Notes under the pieces: model-generated
What the model saw: the letters and a program-made list of their open reading frames with translations, nothing else
The model's database searches: none
What the model was told of the DNA's origin: nothing
Source of the DNA: Thermotoga sp.
GTDB lineage: Bacteria > Thermotogota > Thermotogae > Thermotogales > Thermotogaceae
Reading direction: 5' to 3'
NCBI RefSeq assembly: GCF_021162145.1
Contig: NZ_JAGGZH010000097.1
Span: 1-35,446 of the forward strand
Length of the DNA: 35,446 bases
Program-made: the position numbers and the translations under genes
Shown: piece after piece, positions 3,617 to 26,147 of the stretch
How positions within the stretch are numbered: the stretch's first letter is position 1
How the letters are laid out: each line of letters opens with the position of its first letter

Positions 3617-4630
3617 TCACCCCAGTATCCTGTAGGTACCCCAAAAAAACTCCACCAGACCTGCCAGTTCCAGCTCCGAGATCACCTTGAGAACTTCCGA
3701 CACGTCCCATCCCAGTTCCTCCACCAGATCATCCACGGATTTGGGAGAAACCTTCAAAGATTCGTAGACCATCTTCTGCGGCGGATCAAGTGAAAGATCC
3801 TTTTTTGAAGCAAGTCCAAGGTAAAACATCAAATCTTCCTCGCTTGTGAGGGGGCACGCTCCAGATTTAACAAGGTAGTTCGTTCCCTCACTTGTCTTCC
3901 TATCTATGTCACCGGGAACCGCGAACACATCTCTTCCGTTTTCCACAGCGAACTTTGCCGTTATCAACGCACCACTCTTCATAGGAGCTTCGGTGACGAC
4001 AATCACTCTGGAGAGTCCCGCTATGATACGATTCCTCGCCGGGAAGTGATGTTTTCTCGGCCTTGTTCCCATTGGGTACTCACTGACAACACAGCCGCTT
4101 TTCAGTATTCGATTGAACAAAACCTTGTTCAACTTCGGATAGATCACATCCACTCCCGTGCCGAGCACTGCTACGGTTCTTCCACCGTTATCCAGTGCTT
4201 CTCTGTGAGCAACGGAATCTATCCCAAGGGCCATACCGGAGACGATCACGAAACACTCACACAGCAGCTTCACAAAACGCTTGGTGACACTCGTTCCGTA
4301 ACCAGTCGGTCTTCTCGTTCCCACCACTCCCACACAACTTTCTCTGAGAAGACGGTCATCCCCCCGAACAAAGAGTACAGCAGGTGGAAACCTGGTCTTT
4401 CTCAGGGACTCTGGATAAGAGTCATCCCAGAAAGATATCAGCTTCACTCCGTATCTTTCTATAAGAGTTTTCTGTCCTTCAAACTCTTCTTCACTGCACC
4501 TTTCCCGAAATTTTTGTGCCTTCTTCGGATCGGAGTTTTTCAGGAAAGCATCCAACTCAAGTTGGGGCTCCAGCTCTGAAAATCTGAACCCGCCGTGTTG
4601 AACGAGTAAAGCAATCTCAAGAGGCGTCAT
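3617..4630 (-). CDS. dprA: DNA-processing protein DprA
   Basis: Single-stranded DNA-binding protein that loads RecA on incoming DNA in natural transformation. The 337-residue protein has a short helical N-terminal part, the Rossmann-like core ([12 protein letters not shown] near residue 101, [62 protein letters not shown]) and a C-terminal winged-helix-like domain (about residues 275-337). The ATG at 4630 lies inside the rnfB tail, overlapping it by 14 bases. Its position after the Rnf genes looks like operon fusion rather than shared function. The presence of a pilin-like gene upstream at 9864-10145 may be relevant to DNA uptake. Confidence 0.96.
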
Positions 4631-4910
4631 TCTTGTATTCCTCGAGTATCTTCCTTATTTTCTCTTCCACACCCTGAGACCTTCCGGGAAGACATCTGTT
4701 GGGTTCTGCCTGCCCTTTCACGATCGCTTTCGCGTAAGCTTCACAACCAGCAAATCCACAGGCACCACAGTTTATTCCCGGAAGGACCTCCACTATCATC
4801 TTCACCCGGGGATCCTCTTCGACTCTGAACTTCTGCGCGGAATAGGCAAGAAATACCCCAAAGCCGAATCCCAAAACCGCCAGCAACAAGGTTGAGTACA
4901 GAACTTCCAA
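4617..4910 (-). CDS. rnfB: Rnf complex subunit B, short form with one Fe-S domain
   Basis: Electron-entry subunit of the Rnf complex, normally a membrane anchor, a four-cysteine [4Fe-4S] domain and ferredoxin-type cluster domains. Here only the first two parts exist. A membrane helix lies at about residues 4-24, followed by C48, C51, C56 and C73 in the family pattern (GINCGACGFAGC, then NRCLPG). The protein ends at about 97 residues, whereas usual RnfB has roughly 170-330. No ferredoxin motif follows in any frame because dprA begins before the stop. I prefer TTG 4910, six bases after GGAGGTG; GTG 4919 overlaps that ribosome site. Identity rests on sequence plus position after rnfA. Confidence 0.88.
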   Translation of the reverse strand: MEVLYSTLLLAVLGFGFGVFLAYSAQKFRVEEDPRVKMIVEVLPGINCGACGFAGCEAYAKAIVKGQAEPNRCLPGRSQGVEEKIRKILEEYKNDAS

Positions 4911-4923
4911 CTCCGTCACCTCC

Positions 4924-5499
4924 TCACAGTTTCACCATACCCTGGAAACCCATGAACGCCAGAGAAAGAAGACCAGCGGTGATCAGGGCGATAGCAGTTC
5001 CCTTGAAAGATTCTGGAAGGTCATACAGGTCGAGTTTCTCCCTTATACCAGCGAATATCACCAATGCGAGAGCAAAGCCCAACCCGGAACCCAGTGCATG
5101 GAAGACGGCCTCAACAAAAGTAAGCTTCATAAGACTGTTCAAGAGCACCATTCCAAGAATTGCACAGTTCGTGGTGATGAGAGGGAGGAATATCCCCAGG
5201 GCCTCGTATAGATCGGGACTTGTCTTTTTCAAGAAAAGTTCCACAAACTGTACGAAAGAGGCGATGACCAAGATGAAGACGATCGTTCTCAAAAATTCCA
5301 ACCCCGTGGCCATGAGGAGCTTATCCAGGAACCAGCTGATGGCAGCAGAAACCGTCATGACAAAGGTGACTGCGATTCCCATTCCTGTTGCTGTCTCCAG
5401 TCTCTTGGAAACCCCAAGAAAAGGACATATTCCAAGGAATCTAGCGAGAACGAAGTTGTTCACGAAAATAGCAGAAAAGAAGAGCAGAAACACTTTCAT
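4924..5499 (-). CDS. rnfA: Rnf complex integral membrane subunit A
   Basis: Membrane subunit of the ferredoxin:NAD+ oxidoreductase ion pump; RnfA and RnfE form an inverted pair holding a buried [2Fe-2S] cluster. The 191-residue protein has about six membrane helices, with NNFVLARFLGICPFLGVS near the N-terminus (cluster cysteine) and the matching PLITTNCAILG in the second half. It starts ATGA-overlapped with the rnfE stop and is followed by rnfB after 13 bases. Length and motifs are normal. Confidence 0.97.
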   Translation of the reverse strand: MKVFLLFFSAIFVNNFVLARFLGICPFLGVSKRLETATGMGIAVTFVMTVSAAISWFLDKLLMATGLEFLRTIVFILVIASFVQFVELFLKKTSPDLYEALGIFLPLITTNCAILGMVLLNSLMKLTFVEAVFHALGSGLGFALALVIFAGIREKLDLYDLPESFKGTAIALITAGLLSLAFMGFQGMVKL

Positions 5500-6098
5500 T
5501 TCGCTTCACCCCTCTTCTTCCTTCTCAAACCAACATAGGAGAAGAGTGCCGAGAGAAGTCCAAGTGTTATGTAGGCACCAGGCGGTAATATTTCCAAGAA
5601 GATCTTGATTCTCCAGATCTCGTATCCGAAGATAGTTCCATTTCCAAAGAACTCTCTCACACTTCCCAGAAGAACAAGGGAACCTGTGAACCCAAGACCC
5701 ATTCCTAGACCATCGAGGAAAGAGTCAAAAACACCGTGTTTGGAAGCAAAAGCTTCTGCCCTTCCCATGATTATACAGTTGACAACGATGAGGGGGATGA
5801 ACAGTCCCAACGTTTTCCATAGTTCGTAAGCGAAGCCGTGCATGAGAAGATCTATCAGGGTGACAAAGGACGCTATAACGACGATGAAAATGGGAATCCT
5901 GATCTTTTCAGGAACGATCTTTCTTATCAAGGAAACGACCACGTTCGACATGGTGAGAACCGCCGTGGTGGCAAGTCCCATTCCCAGACCGTTAATCGCA
6001 CTTGTGGTGACAGCAAGAGTAGGGCACATTCCAAGAACCTGAACATACGTTGGATTTTCTTTTATGAATCCTTTCGTGAACTCCTTCAGACGACTCAT
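5496..6098 (-). CDS. rnfE: Rnf complex integral membrane subunit E
   Basis: Second member of the RnfA/RnfE membrane pair. The 200 residues include PTYVQVLGMCPTLAVTTSA with one conserved cysteine and FIPLIVVNCIIMGRAEAFAS with the other, matching the positions that bind the membrane [2Fe-2S] cluster. About six helices are predicted, and the tail is basic (LRRKKRGEAK). It overlaps both neighbours by the four bases ATGA, consistent with a fixed stoichiometry of subunits. Confidence 0.97.
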   Translation of the reverse strand: MSRLKEFTKGFIKENPTYVQVLGMCPTLAVTTSAINGLGMGLATTAVLTMSNVVVSLIRKIVPEKIRIPIFIVVIASFVTLIDLLMHGFAYELWKTLGLFIPLIVVNCIIMGRAEAFASKHGVFDSFLDGLGMGLGFTGSLVLLGSVREFFGNGTIFGYEIWRIKIFLEILPPGAYITLGLLSALFSYVGLRRKKRGEAK

Positions 6099-6772
6099 TT
6101 CAGCACCTCCTCGGTCAAATACCTGTACATGAGGTTCAGGGCCGTTACAACCGCCCTCGGTGTGATGGTCGCTCCCGTCATAACATCACTCACCTTCACG
6201 ATTCCTTTCTTTTTCAGCTCCTCCGGTGTCCCTTTCGGGGATCCGGCGTCCTTGTCTACCCTCAGCCCATTCTTCAAACCCTCCGGTGGAATGAGAAAGA
6301 ACCTTCTCTGGACACTTTCTTCACCGATCCTCGCTCCAAGTCCAGGAGTTTCTTGAGAATAATCGATCACCCTGACAGAATTGAGTATAAGACCATTTTT
6401 TGTTTCCAGAAAACAGGCCACGGTAGTCACGTTCCCACCGAAACCGGGTGCGTAACCTGACAGAACGTAAGCCCTTCTCCCGTCCTTTGTTTCGAATTCG
6501 TAAACCGGACCCAGAACAGCTCCCTCCCTGTATTCTTTCAAAACAACCGTCTCTATTCCAGTTTTTTTCACCACTTCTTCGATCGTTTTCTCGTCCACCA
6601 GATATTCACCGGTGATAGGATCCTTCAAAACGAATTTGATGGCGTTCAACTTTGCCGCTCTATCTGCCTCCTGGATCTTTCCCTTCACACCCGTGTACAC
6701 GACTCCGAGAAAGAGACCTGAAATGGCCGTGAAGATCATGAGAATCAGGCCAGTTTTGAGAATGTCCTTCAT
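6095..6772 (-). CDS. rnfG: Rnf complex flavoprotein subunit G
   Basis: Subunit carrying covalently bound FMN on the outer side of the membrane. One N-terminal membrane helix (about residues 5-27) is followed by a soluble FMN-binding domain with the ETPGLGARIGEE motif. The attachment motif T199-G-A-T202 lies within DVMTGATITPRAVV, where the second threonine carries the flavin phosphate. The 225-residue length is normal. It is ATGA-overlapped with rnfD upstream and rnfE downstream. FMN transfer needs an ApbE-type flavin transferase, which is not in the window. Confidence 0.97.
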   Translation of the reverse strand: MKDILKTGLILMIFTAISGLFLGVVYTGVKGKIQEADRAAKLNAIKFVLKDPITGEYLVDEKTIEEVVKKTGIETVVLKEYREGAVLGPVYEFETKDGRRAYVLSGYAPGFGGNVTTVACFLETKNGLILNSVRVIDYSQETPGLGARIGEESVQRRFFLIPPEGLKNGLRVDKDAGSPKGTPEELKKKGIVKVSDVMTGATITPRAVVTALNLMYRYLTEEVLK

Positions 6773-7725
6773 TCTTTCACCTCACCGAAGATACGAGGTC
6801 TGGTGTACCTGTCTATCAGAGGAACCAGTGCGTTCATGAAAAGAATGGAAAACGAAACACCCTCTGGATAGGCTCCGAAAAGTCTTATTGCCATGGTGAG
6901 AACGCCACATCCTACGCCGAAGATCACCTGACCTTTTGTGGTAACCGGGCTTGTCACCATGTCGGTGGCCATGAAGAGTGCGCCAAGCATAAGGCCACCG
7001 CTGAGAAGATGAAAGAGAGGATCACCGAATCTCGGATTCACCAAATAAGCTATGGAAGAGAACAGAAAAACAGTTCCTATGTAGGAAACGGGAATGAATA
7101 TCTTCACTCTCCTTCTCAGAAGAAGATAGAAGAATCCCACGATGAGAAGAAGGGCACTCGTTTCACCGAGGGACCCTCCCACGTTACCTATGAACAGATC
7201 CCAGTAGGAAGTGATCACGCCGTGCTCTTTGAACAGAGCAAGAGGGGTAGCCGCCGTCATCACGTCCGCTGGCGATTTCCAAAATCCCGCGCCGGGCACG
7301 ACCCAAGTGGTCATGTAGGTGGGAAAGGAGATGAGGAGAAAGGCCCTTCCAACGAGTGCTGGGTTGAACACGTTCTGGCCAAGCCCTCCAAACGCGTGCT
7401 TTCCCAGTCCCAGTGCAAAAACAAGTCCTATTAGAAAAGCCCAGAAGGGAAGCCTTGTGCTCACATTCATCGCAAGAAGTAAACCTGTAACTGCTCCACT
7501 TCCATCGGGCACGAAGTTCTTCACACCCCTCAGATACCTCATAACAAACACGTCGAAGAGCTCTCCAATCACTGCTCCCGAAACACAGAGAAAGAGAGCG
7601 TACCATCCAAAGAAATAGGCAGCTCCAATGACTGCGGGTGAGAGGGCAATGAGAACGTCCAGCATGATTTTTCTCACATCGTCCTCTTCTCGAAGATGGG
7701 GTGCATAGGCACTTGTCAGCTTCAT
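6769..7725 (-). CDS. rnfD: Rnf complex membrane flavoprotein subunit D
   Basis: Polytopic subunit that binds FMN covalently and helps conduct the coupling ion. The 318-residue protein has about eight or nine helices with the family signatures NVFNPALVGRAFL (around residue 118), GETSALLLIVG and ATDMVTSP. The probable FMN-threonine is T160 in MTAATPLA (T157-A-A-T160); the usual motif reads S/T-G-A-T, so alanine replaces glycine. The gene overlaps rnfC and rnfG by four bases each. Identity is clear. Confidence 0.97.
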   Translation of the reverse strand: MKLTSAYAPHLREEDDVRKIMLDVLIALSPAVIGAAYFFGWYALFLCVSGAVIGELFDVFVMRYLRGVKNFVPDGSGAVTGLLLAMNVSTRLPFWAFLIGLVFALGLGKHAFGGLGQNVFNPALVGRAFLLISFPTYMTTWVVPGAGFWKSPADVMTAATPLALFKEHGVITSYWDLFIGNVGGSLGETSALLLIVGFFYLLLRRRVKIFIPVSYIGTVFLFSSIAYLVNPRFGDPLFHLLSGGLMLGALFMATDMVTSPVTTKGQVIFGVGCGVLTMAIRLFGAYPEGVSFSILFMNALVPLIDRYTRPRIFGEVKE

Positions 7726-9029
7726 TTTCTACCCCTCCTTGTGGCTCGATAGACGGTTTTTGCAAGTTTTATGTATCTCACGTGTTCTATCTTGGAAGGA
7801 CAAGTGTACGTGCAGGAACCGCATTCTATACAATCCATGAGGCCGTTTTCCACCGCTTCATCGTATTTCCTCTTCGTGGACAAGAGGTAGAGCAGATAAG
7901 GCTGAAGGTTCATCGGGCATACCTGAACACACTTGCTACATCTTATACAGGGTTTTTGAGGCTGAGGTTTTCTCGGGAGAAAGACAGTTATCCCCGAGGT
8001 ACCCTTCATGACAGGAAGATTGAGATTCGTGATGGAGACTCCCATCATAGGGCCTCCCAGGATGACCCGTTCTGTGTTTTCATCGATTCCTCCACAGTAT
8101 TCCAAGACGTCCTTCACAGGTGTTCCAATTCTGACAATGAGATTCTTTGGATCCCTGACAGCGTCACCGCTGACAGTCATACCTCTTTCCACAAGGGGCT
8201 TCCCATCCACAACAGCTTCCTTCACAGCAACGCAGGTACCCACGTTTTGAACGACAACCCCAACATCCATGGGGAGGCCTCCCCTTGGAACTCTTCTTCT
8301 CGTTATCGCGTAGATGAGTTGTTTTTCTGCTCCCTGAGGATATTTGGTCCTGAGCAGGACAGCCTCAACGGGATATCCCTTGAAGACTTTCTTCAGATTG
8401 TGGTAGGCATCCATCTTGTTGCTCTCCACACCAACCACTGCCTTCTGAACTCCCAGTACTTTCATCATGATCAAAATCCCCTTGAGAATGTCCTCTGCCC
8501 TCTCCAGCATCAATCTGTGGTCTATGGTGAGGACAGGTTCACACTCTGCTCCGTTGATGATCAGAGTGTCTATTTTCTTCTCAGGGGGAGGAGAAAGTTT
8601 GACGTGGGTGGGAAACATGGCACCACCGAGCCCTACTATTCCAGCCCTTTTGATGACATCCAGAATTTCCTCTTTTGACATGCGTTCAAAATCGCCTGTT
8701 TCCAAGTGCATCCACTCGTCGTCGGAGGTCCTTTCTATGACGACAGCTTCAACGGACTTTCCAGCGATTGGGTGAAGAATCTTTTTTATCTCGATCACCT
8801 TTCCCGTCACAGGTGAGTGAAGATAAGCGGAAATGAAACCATCGGGTTCTCCTACTATCTGCCCTGTTTTCACTTCATCGCCGGGTGAAACCACCGCCTT
8901 GGAGGGACTTCCAGCATGGTTCAACAGAAAAACGTAGACTCTCTGGGGAAGTGTCATCCTCTCGATCGGTTTTTCTTTTGTCCATTCTTTTAGCTGCGGG
9001 GGATGTACTCCTCCTTTGAAAGTGAGCAC
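7722..9029 (-). CDS. rnfC: Rnf complex subunit C (NADH-binding, two ferredoxin clusters)
   Basis: Peripheral subunit that exchanges electrons with NAD(H). The 435 residues run from the RnfC N-terminus (LTFKGGVHPP) through a NuoF-like flavin/nucleotide fold (GLGGAMFPTHVKL) and an SLBB region to two [4Fe-4S] motifs: C361, C364, C367, C371 (CIRCSKCVQVCP) and C400, C403, C406, C410 (CIECGSCTYTCP). The GTG at 9029 is chosen because it gives the conserved N-terminus and has GGAGGTGA, which overlaps the upstream stop. A longer open frame to 9170 would run into the radical-SAM gene. With RnfB lacking ferredoxin domains here, RnfC carries the only visible dicluster module of the complex. Confidence 0.96.
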   Translation of the reverse strand: MLTFKGGVHPPQLKEWTKEKPIERMTLPQRVYVFLLNHAGSPSKAVVSPGDEVKTGQIVGEPDGFISAYLHSPVTGKVIEIKKILHPIAGKSVEAVVIERTSDDEWMHLETGDFERMSKEEILDVIKRAGIVGLGGAMFPTHVKLSPPPEKKIDTLIINGAECEPVLTIDHRLMLERAEDILKGILIMMKVLGVQKAVVGVESNKMDAYHNLKKVFKGYPVEAVLLRTKYPQGAEKQLIYAITRRRVPRGGLPMDVGVVVQNVGTCVAVKEAVVDGKPLVERGMTVSGDAVRDPKNLIVRIGTPVKDVLEYCGGIDENTERVILGGPMMGVSITNLNLPVMKGTSGITVFLPRKPQPQKPCIRCSKCVQVCPMNLQPYLLYLLSTKRKYDEAVENGLMDCIECGSCTYTCPSKIEHVRYIKLAKTVYRATRRGRK

Positions 9030-23968: not shown

Positions 23969-23997
23969 AAAGAGGACGCCTTCTTGGCGTCCTCTTT
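23969..23997 (-). terminator. Strong intrinsic terminator after the nuoF-like gene
   Basis: A perfect 12-base stem (AAAGAGGACGCC / GGCGTCCTCTTT) with a 5-base loop is followed on the minus strand by TTTGTTTG. The first stem bases overlap the nuoF stop codon (TAA at 23996-23998). The stem also has an A-run on its other side, so it could work bidirectionally. Confidence 0.88.
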
Positions 23998-25633
23998 ATC
24001 TGTTCTTGACACTTATCTTTCTCGATGCTTTTTTCTTTTTGAATTCACATACACCCGCAGGGCATTCTCTGACTTCAATGTGCGCCCTGAACTCATCTTC
24101 GAAGTTGTCGATTATTGAAAGTAACGGTACTGGGATGCTTTGACCGAGTCCACAGAACGACGTTTCCCCTGCGTTTTTTGCCACTTTTCTGAGAAGATCC
24201 AGATCCTCTTCCCTTCCTTCTCCTCTGCTTATTCTCTCCAGTATCTGAACAGCGATCTTCGTTCCTTCTCTACAGGGTGTACATTTACCACAGGATTCGT
24301 GCTCGAAGAACTTCATAACGGTGAGCGCAAGATTCACTGCGCAGTGTGACTCATCTGCAACGAGGATGACTCCAGAGCCGAGAGAAACACCGTACTTCGC
24401 GTACGAGTCGAAGTCCAGGGGTACGTCGAGCTTGTCGGGTCCTATGAACGTTCCCGCACTACCACCTGTCTGTACCAGTTTCAATTTCTTTCCTTTTTCC
24501 ACACCTCCACCGAACCTGAAGATCAAATCTCTCACCGTTACACCCATGGGTACCTCCACGATACCCTTCCTCACCACGTTTCCTACAAGAGAAAAGACCT
24601 TGGTTCCGGGCGATGATTCTGTGCCGAACTTTCTGAACCAATCCGCTCCGTTCAGAATGATTCTCGGGACATTCACAAAAGTTTCAACGTTATTCACAAC
24701 CGTTGGCTTTCCAAACAAGCCAAAAGTTGGTGGGTACGGTGGTTTTAGTCTGGGGCGCGCGGGCTTACCCTCTATGGACTCTATCAGGGCAGTCTCTTCA
24801 CCCGCTACGTAGGCGCCCGCACCCAGTCTGACCTTCAAGTCGAAGGAAAAGCCCGTTCCGAGAATGTTCTCGCCCAAAAACCCATATTCGTAAGCTTGAT
24901 CTATCGCCCTTCTCAGGATCTCAATGGAGCTGTAGTACTCACCCCTTATGTATATGTAACCTTTTCTCGCTCCAACCGCGTAGCCTGCTATGATCATACC
25001 CTCTATCAAAGAATGTGGATCTCCTTCCATGATGAGCCTGTCCTTGAAGGTACCGGGTTCCCCTTCGTCTGCATTGCAAAGGACATACTTTTGATCGGAA
25101 GAAGCTTTGTAGGTGAACTCCCACTTCAAACCTGTTGGAAAGCCTGCCCCTCCTCTTCCTCTGAGACCACTTCGCTTTATCTCTCCTATTACCTCTTCTG
25201 GTTTCATCTGAAGGGCCTTTGCGAGGGCAAAATATCCATCCCTTGCTATGTACTCTTCTATACGTGTGGGATCTATCTTCCCCACGTTCTTCAGAACGAT
25301 ACGTGTTTCTTCCGCTACCCTCTCCACTTCCACCGTTCCTTTTATCTGATCCTCCGATACTTCGAGACCCGGTATCCTTCTTCCTTTCAATATGTGCTCT
25401 TCGAAAACCCTTTTCACGTCACCCTCACTCTTCACAATGTAGAAAACACCATCCGGAAGGATGGAGACAATCACACCTTCAGGATAAACTCCCATACTTC
25501 CCGTTTCCAGGACATCCACAGAATCTGACAGATTGTGATCTCTAACAAGATCCCTCAAGTAGTTGAGAAAGTGGCGCGCTCCCATCAGAACACTGTTGGA
25601 GTCCACAGAGACAAGAACGGTGATCGGTTTCAT
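23996..25633 (-). CDS. NuoF/HydB-like flavoprotein with one [4Fe-4S] site
   Basis: NAD(H)-binding subunit related to NuoF and to HydB of bifurcating hydrogenases. The 545 residues comprise an N-terminal thioredoxin-like region (about 1-115) with no cysteine at all. They then have the FMN/NADH module (LRGRGGAGFPTGLKW, NADEGEPGTFKDR, GAGAYVAGEETALIESIEG), an SLBB region (about 330-400) and the cluster motif C448, C451, C454 and C494 (SCGKCTPCREGT, SFCGLG). The C-terminus keeps CPAGVC (524-529) but stops before the ferredoxin extension found in HydB-type proteins. It overlaps nuoE by ATGA. No hydrogenase or other catalytic subunit is adjacent, so its electron partner is unknown. Confidence 0.92.
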   Translation of the reverse strand: MKPITVLVSVDSNSVLMGARHFLNYLRDLVRDHNLSDSVDVLETGSMGVYPEGVIVSILPDGVFYIVKSEGDVKRVFEEHILKGRRIPGLEVSEDQIKGTVEVERVAEETRIVLKNVGKIDPTRIEEYIARDGYFALAKALQMKPEEVIGEIKRSGLRGRGGAGFPTGLKWEFTYKASSDQKYVLCNADEGEPGTFKDRLIMEGDPHSLIEGMIIAGYAVGARKGYIYIRGEYYSSIEILRRAIDQAYEYGFLGENILGTGFSFDLKVRLGAGAYVAGEETALIESIEGKPARPRLKPPYPPTFGLFGKPTVVNNVETFVNVPRIILNGADWFRKFGTESSPGTKVFSLVGNVVRKGIVEVPMGVTVRDLIFRFGGGVEKGKKLKLVQTGGSAGTFIGPDKLDVPLDFDSYAKYGVSLGSGVILVADESHCAVNLALTVMKFFEHESCGKCTPCREGTKIAVQILERISRGEGREEDLDLLRKVAKNAGETSFCGLGQSIPVPLLSIIDNFEDEFRAHIEVRECPAGVCEFKKKKASRKISVKNR

Positions 25634-26103
25634 TTCCCCTCACCTCTCAGCTTGTTTATGAGATCTCTCACTTTCTCTGGTGTCATGTTTCCATAGTATT
25701 CGTCGTTCACCATGATCACAGGTGCTACACCGCAAAGCCCCAGGCAACTCGTCATTTCGAGAGTGAACATGTTGTCGGGAGTGGTTTGACCGAAGTCTAT
25801 TTTCAGGGTCTCTTTTAACGCCTTCACCACTTCCCTCCCGTTCTCCACATGACACGGGAGACTTTCACACACTCTGATCACGTACTTTCCCCTCGGCTTC
25901 GTGGAGAACATCGTGTAGAAGGTGAGGACTTCATACACCTTCGAGAGGGGAACGTTGAGCTCTTCCGCAACGATCTCGGCTGCCTCAGGCGGTATGAAGT
26001 TCTTGAAATGTTTTTGGATCTCGTGAAGGGTGTTTATCAGGGTATCCCTCTCTTCCGCCGATTCTTTTGCTTTCTGGATGATCCCGATTATTACATCCCT
26101 CAT
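25630..26103 (-). CDS. NuoE-like [2Fe-2S] subunit
   Basis: Thioredoxin-like ferredoxin subunit that partners NuoF-type flavoproteins. The 157 residues contain the four cluster ligands C79-x4-C84 (CESLPC) and C120-x3-C124 (CLGLC), with the helical N-terminal bundle including IPPEAAEIVAEELNVPLSKVYEVLTFY. I start it at ATG 26103, directly after a strong GGGGGAGG site; the frame is open 13 codons further but without a site. It has its own promoter and a Rex-like operator in the leader. Confidence 0.93.
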   Translation of the reverse strand: MRDVIIGIIQKAKESAEERDTLINTLHEIQKHFKNFIPPEAAEIVAEELNVPLSKVYEVLTFYTMFSTKPRGKYVIRVCESLPCHVENGREVVKALKETLKIDFGQTTPDNMFTLEMTSCLGLCGVAPVIMVNDEYYGNMTPEKVRDLINKLRGEGK

Positions 26104-26116
26104 GTGTCCTCCCCCT

Positions 26117-26134
26117 TCGTCAAAAATTTCACAA
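26117..26134 (-). promoter_or_regulatory. Candidate Rex (NADH/NAD+ sensor) operator
   Basis: The 18-base plus-strand sequence TCGTCAAAAATTTCACAA matches the general Rex palindrome TTGTGAA-N4-TTCACAA at 12 of 14 specified bases, with one half perfect. It lies just downstream of the predicted transcription start and upstream of the nuoE ribosome site, a position suited to repression. The Rex gene itself is not in the window. The match is by eye to a remembered consensus. Confidence 0.5.
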
Positions 26135-26147
26135 TTATTCATAGAAA

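Follow-up and report, generated by a model that had tools for sequence, protein, structure and literature searches.

A short RnfB with a single iron-sulfur domain in Thermotogota, and a probable route for electrons from ferredoxin into the Rnf complex

How does ferredoxin deliver electrons to an Rnf complex whose RnfB subunit lacks the ferredoxin-type clusters that accept them elsewhere? This question is raised by the rnf locus on a 35,446-nucleotide contig from Thermotoga sp. (NZ_JAGGZH010000097.1; we refer to this whole stretch as the window). The genes lie on the - strand in the order rnfCDGEAB, from 9029 down to 4617, and are followed by dprA. A preliminary description of the locus held that RnfB is a membrane helix plus one Fe-S domain, and the open reading frame and its domain content bear this out. 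The description had the short frame right but began it at 4910 (97 amino acids); we place rnfB at 4617..4919 (- strand), with a GTG start at 4919 and a product of 100 amino acids. Because the start has moved, the cysteine formerly numbered C73 is C76 here. The only Pfam domain matched in the product is the FeS domain PF04060 (57.8 bits; residues 46-78, encoded at 4686..4784, - strand), or FdI, with ligands C51, C54, C59, and C76. A membrane helix is predicted at residues 3-30 (4830..4913, - strand) from the AlphaFold2 model (m89c673e7d547, mean pLDDT 87.6) and from the hydrophobic sequence. The Pfam scan found no Fer4 or ferredoxin-type domain in this protein. Similarly, the NCBIfam model for rnfB, TIGR01944, gives 79.9 bits (its curated cut-off is 68.7 bits) with only model positions 7-91 of 190 aligned, leaving positions 92-190 unmatched. 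In Foldseek comparisons, the modelled fold matches A. woodii RnfB and the N-terminal domain of the corrinoid iron-sulfur protein, with modest E-values and a best probability of 1.00. The corrinoid protein (2ycl, 4c1n, and 4djd, probability 0.99-1.00) has the same FeS fold but, unlike the window RnfB, it is soluble, has no membrane helix, and has another partner.

The preliminary description was also right that the Rnf cluster is otherwise complete, as intact copies of rnfC, D, G, E, and A lie upstream. On the - strand, these are rnfA (4924..5499; TIGR01943, 287 bits), rnfE (5496..6098; TIGR01948, 288 bits), rnfG (6095..6772; TIGR01947, 191 bits), rnfD (6769..7725; TIGR01946, 402 bits), and rnfC (7722..9029; TIGR01945, 633 bits), which encodes 435 amino acids from its likely start in a frame that is open to 9170. 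All six Rnf subunits are thus encoded together in the window, and the redox ligands of RnfA, E, C, D, and G are conserved. In our alignments, C25 and C112 of RnfA, for the membrane [2Fe-2S] cluster, are both invariant in 56 rows, and C25 and C108 of RnfE are kept in 54 and 55 of 55 rows. The threonine of the TGAT flavinylation motif of RnfG is invariant in 49 rows; the RnfD threonine is conserved too, with serine in two RnfD rows at the first of the positions and in five at the second. RnfC can be aligned over almost its whole length with its counterparts in the 7zc6 and 9eri structures, and the eight cysteines of its two C-terminal 4Fe-4S sites are invariant in 53 rows. The flavin transferase ApbE is encoded elsewhere in the genome (G000:C39:18539-19345, 274.5 bits). 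Given these conserved ligands and the presence of ApbE, the pumping path beyond FdI is intact.

Could the short gene be a pseudogene, or an error of assembly or annotation? Only its length would speak for this. As the preliminary description argued, a frameshift cannot be hiding the ferredoxin clusters: the ATG of dprA (3617..4630, - strand; TIGR00732, 250 bits) is at 4630, so that the two genes overlap by 14 nt at the rnfB stop, and neither the window nor the short-RnfB operons that we read have any Fer4 coding sequence next to rnfB. We therefore rejected a frameshifted or split rnfB. The description had allowed that an assembly error might conceal the ferredoxin part, but no such domain is encoded downstream, and a local error is ruled out because six more genomes of the genus, and 83 Thermotogota genomes in all, from ten family-level groups, have the same short frame. 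Furthermore, the four FdI ligand cysteines are invariant across 24 diverse short RnfB proteins from Thermotogota, the N-terminal part of TIGR01944 is matched in full, and the T. maritima complex is active (PMC7414866). This conservation refutes the idea of a broken gene, to which we give next to no credence.

The short one-cluster RnfB is a correct observation but not a new one. The preliminary description presented it as novel, but both the short subunit and a working complex from T. maritima are already in print (PMC7414866; PMC9588780). Kuhns et al. (2020) reported that T. maritima RnfB has a mass of 10.56 kDa and one predicted 4Fe-4S cluster, and that the purified Rnf complex oxidises C. 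pasteurianum ferredoxin, reduces NAD+, and transports Na+; the ferredoxin:NAD+ activity was 97 mU/mg in membranes and 2.1 U/mg for the purified complex (PMC7414866). Vitt et al. (2022) stated that T. maritima RnfB consists of FdI only (PMC9588780). In the window locus the genes are likewise ordered rnfCDGEAB, and its RnfB, of about 10.5 kDa, again has a single predicted 4Fe-4S cluster; nothing material differs. Judged by its sequence, the window RnfB is this published short variant and not a canonical RnfB.

Comparison with longer RnfB proteins shows which part is missing. Subunit B of the ion-translocating oxidoreductase 8ahx (174 amino acids), which we take to be Azotobacter vinelandii Rnf1, resembles the window RnfB across the helix and FdI (59.7 bits) and has a further ferredoxin-type domain that the window RnfB is without. 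The helix and FdI also align with RnfB from C. tetanomorphum (7zc6; 74.3 bits over residues 6-88) and A. woodii (9eri; 54.7 bits over residues 9-80), but in those proteins five or seven more 4Fe-4S clusters follow as acceptors for ferredoxin (PMC12174285), and the window RnfB has none. Vitt et al. proposed that a mobile FdI shuttles electrons from FdII/III to RnfA/E (PMC9588780). In A. woodii, FdI corresponds to B8, the final cluster of RnfB on the way to RnfA/E, and Kumar et al. (2025) mutated the B8 ligands as a test of the electron path (PMC11889175). What is missing from the window RnfB is the FdII/FdIII polyferredoxin, and FdI, from whose cluster electrons enter RnfA/E, is retained.

How widespread is this arrangement? 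An RnfB N-terminal match was found in 99 of 103 Thermotogota genomes (the exceptions are G003, G011, G031, and G054, three of which are 71-80% complete), and judging by frame length or by reading, the ferredoxin module is missing in all 99. The open frame has 91-136 amino acids in the 83 genomes mentioned above and 231-240 amino acids in the other 16, which all belong to one Kosmotogaceae-like family (f9). Each of the long f9 proteins that we read (L175-L182, L196, L034, L036, and L044) has PF04060 twice and no Fer4. The two halves share 23-39 identities over 77-85 residues, with alignment scores of 132-200 versus maxima of 41-63 for shuffled sequences, and eight cysteines are invariant in an alignment of ten sequences. 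The f9 RnfB, at about 235 amino acids, is by this internal similarity a tandem duplication of FdI with a helical extension. The RnfB of the family that is sister to f9 in the tree (f10) has one FdI and shares the C-terminal helical extension; the likely order of events is therefore FdI alone, then FdI with the extension, and then the duplication. Our search of the openly accessible literature found no description of the FdI-duplicated Kosmotogaceae RnfB, so it seems not to have been described before.

One Thermotogota bin (G102) does contain a long RnfB with Fer4, on contig L195 (G102:C122). This contig has the same sequence as L075 (QNAP01000122.1) and holds an Omnitrophota-like rnf operon. 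Because it resembles the Omnitrophota contig L082, it is probably misbinned, and we left it uncounted. Also, in a family of the same order as the window (f3), the short rnfB mostly stays beside dprA (L155-L162, L199, and L200) and the remaining rnfCDGEA genes are sited elsewhere in the genome (L208 and L209).

The preliminary description had proposed aligning RnfB across Thermotogae and other phyla. The absence of the ferredoxin module proves to be phylum-wide, and short RnfB is not confined to Thermotogota. We used the alignment of Thermotogota RnfB proteins (A1) as the query. In Bacillota, 133 of 249 genomes had an RnfB match, and the frame was short in two of the 133 (98 and 102 amino acids); both loci have a full rnf operon with antiporter-like genes downstream. 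In Omnitrophota, RnfB was matched in 105 of 193 genomes and was short in 6 of these. Two of the six have a full rnf operon; the other four have rnfB apart, beside plsX, and rnfD, G, and E elsewhere. These four rnfB-plsX loci (L248-L251) are near genes for electron-transfer flavoprotein and acyl-CoA dehydrogenase; rnfC and rnfA were not located in these four genomes. Among 198 Spirochaetota genomes, 129 had a match, and 14 of the 129 have frames of 99-146 amino acids, a count that is by frame length only, excludes one frame at a contig edge, and could include split genes (G623, G681, G646, G651, G661, G571, G602, G636, G676, G648, G656, G630, G668, and G703). In the short Bacillota lineage, RnfG is also unusual: it has about 477 amino acids and four FMN_bind repeats instead of one (L217:3796-5226, - strand), and L216 likewise has a 506-amino-acid frame. 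This suggests an altered extracytoplasmic electron outlet in that lineage.

Trees of concatenated RnfC, D, E, and A, built by a quick method with SH-aLRT support only and with the root not inferred, point to repeated origins. Thermotogota form one clade (SH-aLRT 100), the Bacillota short pair is nested inside Bacillota with long RnfB (SH-aLRT 99), and the Omnitrophota short pair is among Omnitrophota with long RnfB (SH-aLRT 93). A single clade of all the Fer4-less rows was rejected (p-AU 7e-5). These results support at least three origins of short RnfB, and loss of the ferredoxin module is the clear reading for the Bacillota and Omnitrophota forms. In Thermotogota, loss is likely but falls short of proof, because the root was not inferred. 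Since short RnfB proteins with a full rnf operon arose inside long clades, the polyferredoxin module is dispensable.

We think it probable that the window encodes a genuine, working, reduced RnfB and that a soluble one-cluster ferredoxin donates electrons straight to FdI. In other RnfB proteins, the FdII/FdIII polyferredoxin is an antenna, which ferredoxin reduces and which in turn supplies FdI with electrons. In the short form, the soluble ferredoxin would replace the antenna: it would dock transiently, at FdI or next to it, perhaps in the space on the RnfC side that FdII/III fill elsewhere, and reduce the FdI cluster directly. FdI would then swing to the [2Fe-2S] site of RnfA/E, and electrons would follow the standard route via RnfG, RnfD, and RnfC to NAD+. 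Both the direct transfer and the docking site are inferred. Direct donation is favored in that the downstream ligands are conserved, FdI is the only known cytoplasmic entry to the pumping path, a one-cluster ferredoxin is present in the genome, and the short lineages have no shared change in RnfC. The preliminary description spoke of a different electron path. This is apt for the first step only, because beyond FdI the electrons take the usual Rnf route.

The charge of RnfB may also be relevant. The tail after the fourth FdI cysteine has a mean charge of +1.5 to +2.7 in the short groups versus -0.4 to -0.7 in the long ones, and a basic tail might suit the docking of an acidic ferredoxin. We also considered a basic residue after the CxPG motif as a signature of short RnfB. 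It was found in 0 of 76 long proteins in a pattern-biased sample, but lysine is present at this site in 9 of 56 long proteins in a less biased sample, so we rejected it as a signature and retain it as no more than a weak hint; that the lysine occurs in long forms too weakens the argument from the basic tail. Another point against direct donation is that the donor in the T. maritima assays was clostridial ferredoxin and not the native one (PMC7414866). Also, the second FdI of Kosmotogaceae suggests that one FdI is not optimal in every case.

The preliminary description suggested that RnfC might take over electron entry from ferredoxin. RnfC does have two 4Fe-4S sites on the cytoplasmic side, but these are its standard clusters. 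We counted 0 shared column changes in RnfC, D, E, or A across three short lineages (the null means were 0.02 to 0.09), which rejects convergent remodelling of these subunits and means that no RnfC column changed in common. Entry via RnfC would bypass the membrane pumping path, and the invariant cysteines of FdI and RnfA/E would then be unexpected. Furthermore, the clusters of RnfB and RnfC are 25 Å or more apart in the structures (PMC9588780, PMC11889175). We consider entry through RnfC to be very improbable.

A second possibility is that a detached module docks on RnfB in the role of FdII: either a Fer4 protein encoded elsewhere or a ferredoxin-like oxidoreductase subunit (PorD-type or Hyd). 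There are 32 Fer4 matches in the genome, part of which we read, and C. tetanomorphum RnfB is thought to accept either soluble ferredoxin or the Fd-like subunit of a larger complex (PMC9588780). Moreover, mass spectrometry of the 290-kDa T. maritima complex identified RnfC, D, and G only, so that RnfB itself went undetected, and Kuhns et al. noted that the true number of clusters remains to be established; an extra FeS subunit could therefore have gone unseen (PMC7414866). However, rnfB has no neighboring Fer4 gene, either in the window or among the short-RnfB operons that we read, and clostridial ferredoxin sufficed for the purified T. maritima complex (PMC7414866). The preliminary description proposed a search for an orphan dicluster ferredoxin. 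None was seen among the Fer4 matches that we read, in which the small two-cluster proteins adjoin genes for 2-oxoacid oxidoreductase subunits, and we rejected this candidate on that partial reading. The free-standing small ferredoxin of the genome is a 60-amino-acid, one-cluster protein of the T. maritima type (it matches 1rof/1vjw). The earlier idea that another ferredoxin docks on the short subunit thus survives in the form of an ordinary soluble ferredoxin, and a detached module seems unlikely.

Alternatively, the pump might run mainly on a different donor or in a different direction, so that an antenna for fast oxidation of ferredoxin is dispensable. The recurrence of short forms in four phyla and the RnfG repeats of the short Bacillota clade are compatible with this. 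However, ferredoxin:NAD+ activity was measured both in T. maritima membranes and with the purified complex (PMC7414866), and we judge this explanation improbable.

The short RnfB is the smallest input module of a working Rnf, and it therefore separates an essential step, from FdI to RnfA/E, from an optional antenna. We see about an even chance that Rnf complexes lacking a polyferredoxin form an architecture of their own, which has recurred, has become fixed throughout one phylum, and uses the cell's own ferredoxin as its antenna, and that Kosmotogaceae went on to restore a relay when FdI was duplicated together with a helical extension, giving an undescribed two-domain RnfB. To what was published, we add the phylum-wide extent, the recurrence in three other phyla, and the duplication of FdI. 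In cryo-EM work, the flexible and poorly resolved FdI region has obscured how ferredoxin docks on Rnf; the fixation across the phylum, the Kosmotogaceae duplication, and the independent losses are natural tests of it.

NqrF works similarly to the short RnfB, as its helix-anchored, mobile FeS domain feeds NqrD/E (PMC12174285), but it has a [2Fe-2S] cluster and an FAD/NADH domain and is not homologous to RnfB. A 2014 survey reported that the nqr operon is absent from Thermotogae (PMC4014512). We noticed a second, Nqr-like cluster in Thermotogota (L203:1680-5973 and L206:1362-5629, both - strand, and about 50 other genomes). It encodes NqrB, C, D, and E, NqrF (TIGR01941, 297.7 bits, over the cut-off), and a 153-amino-acid protein with no Pfam match; NqrA was not found in the stretch read around it. 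The window itself also encodes a second NADH-type FeS flavoprotein, a NuoF-like protein of 545 amino acids with Complex1_51K and NADH_4Fe-4S domains and no Fer4, which adjoins a frame of 170 amino acids (23996-26142, - strand).
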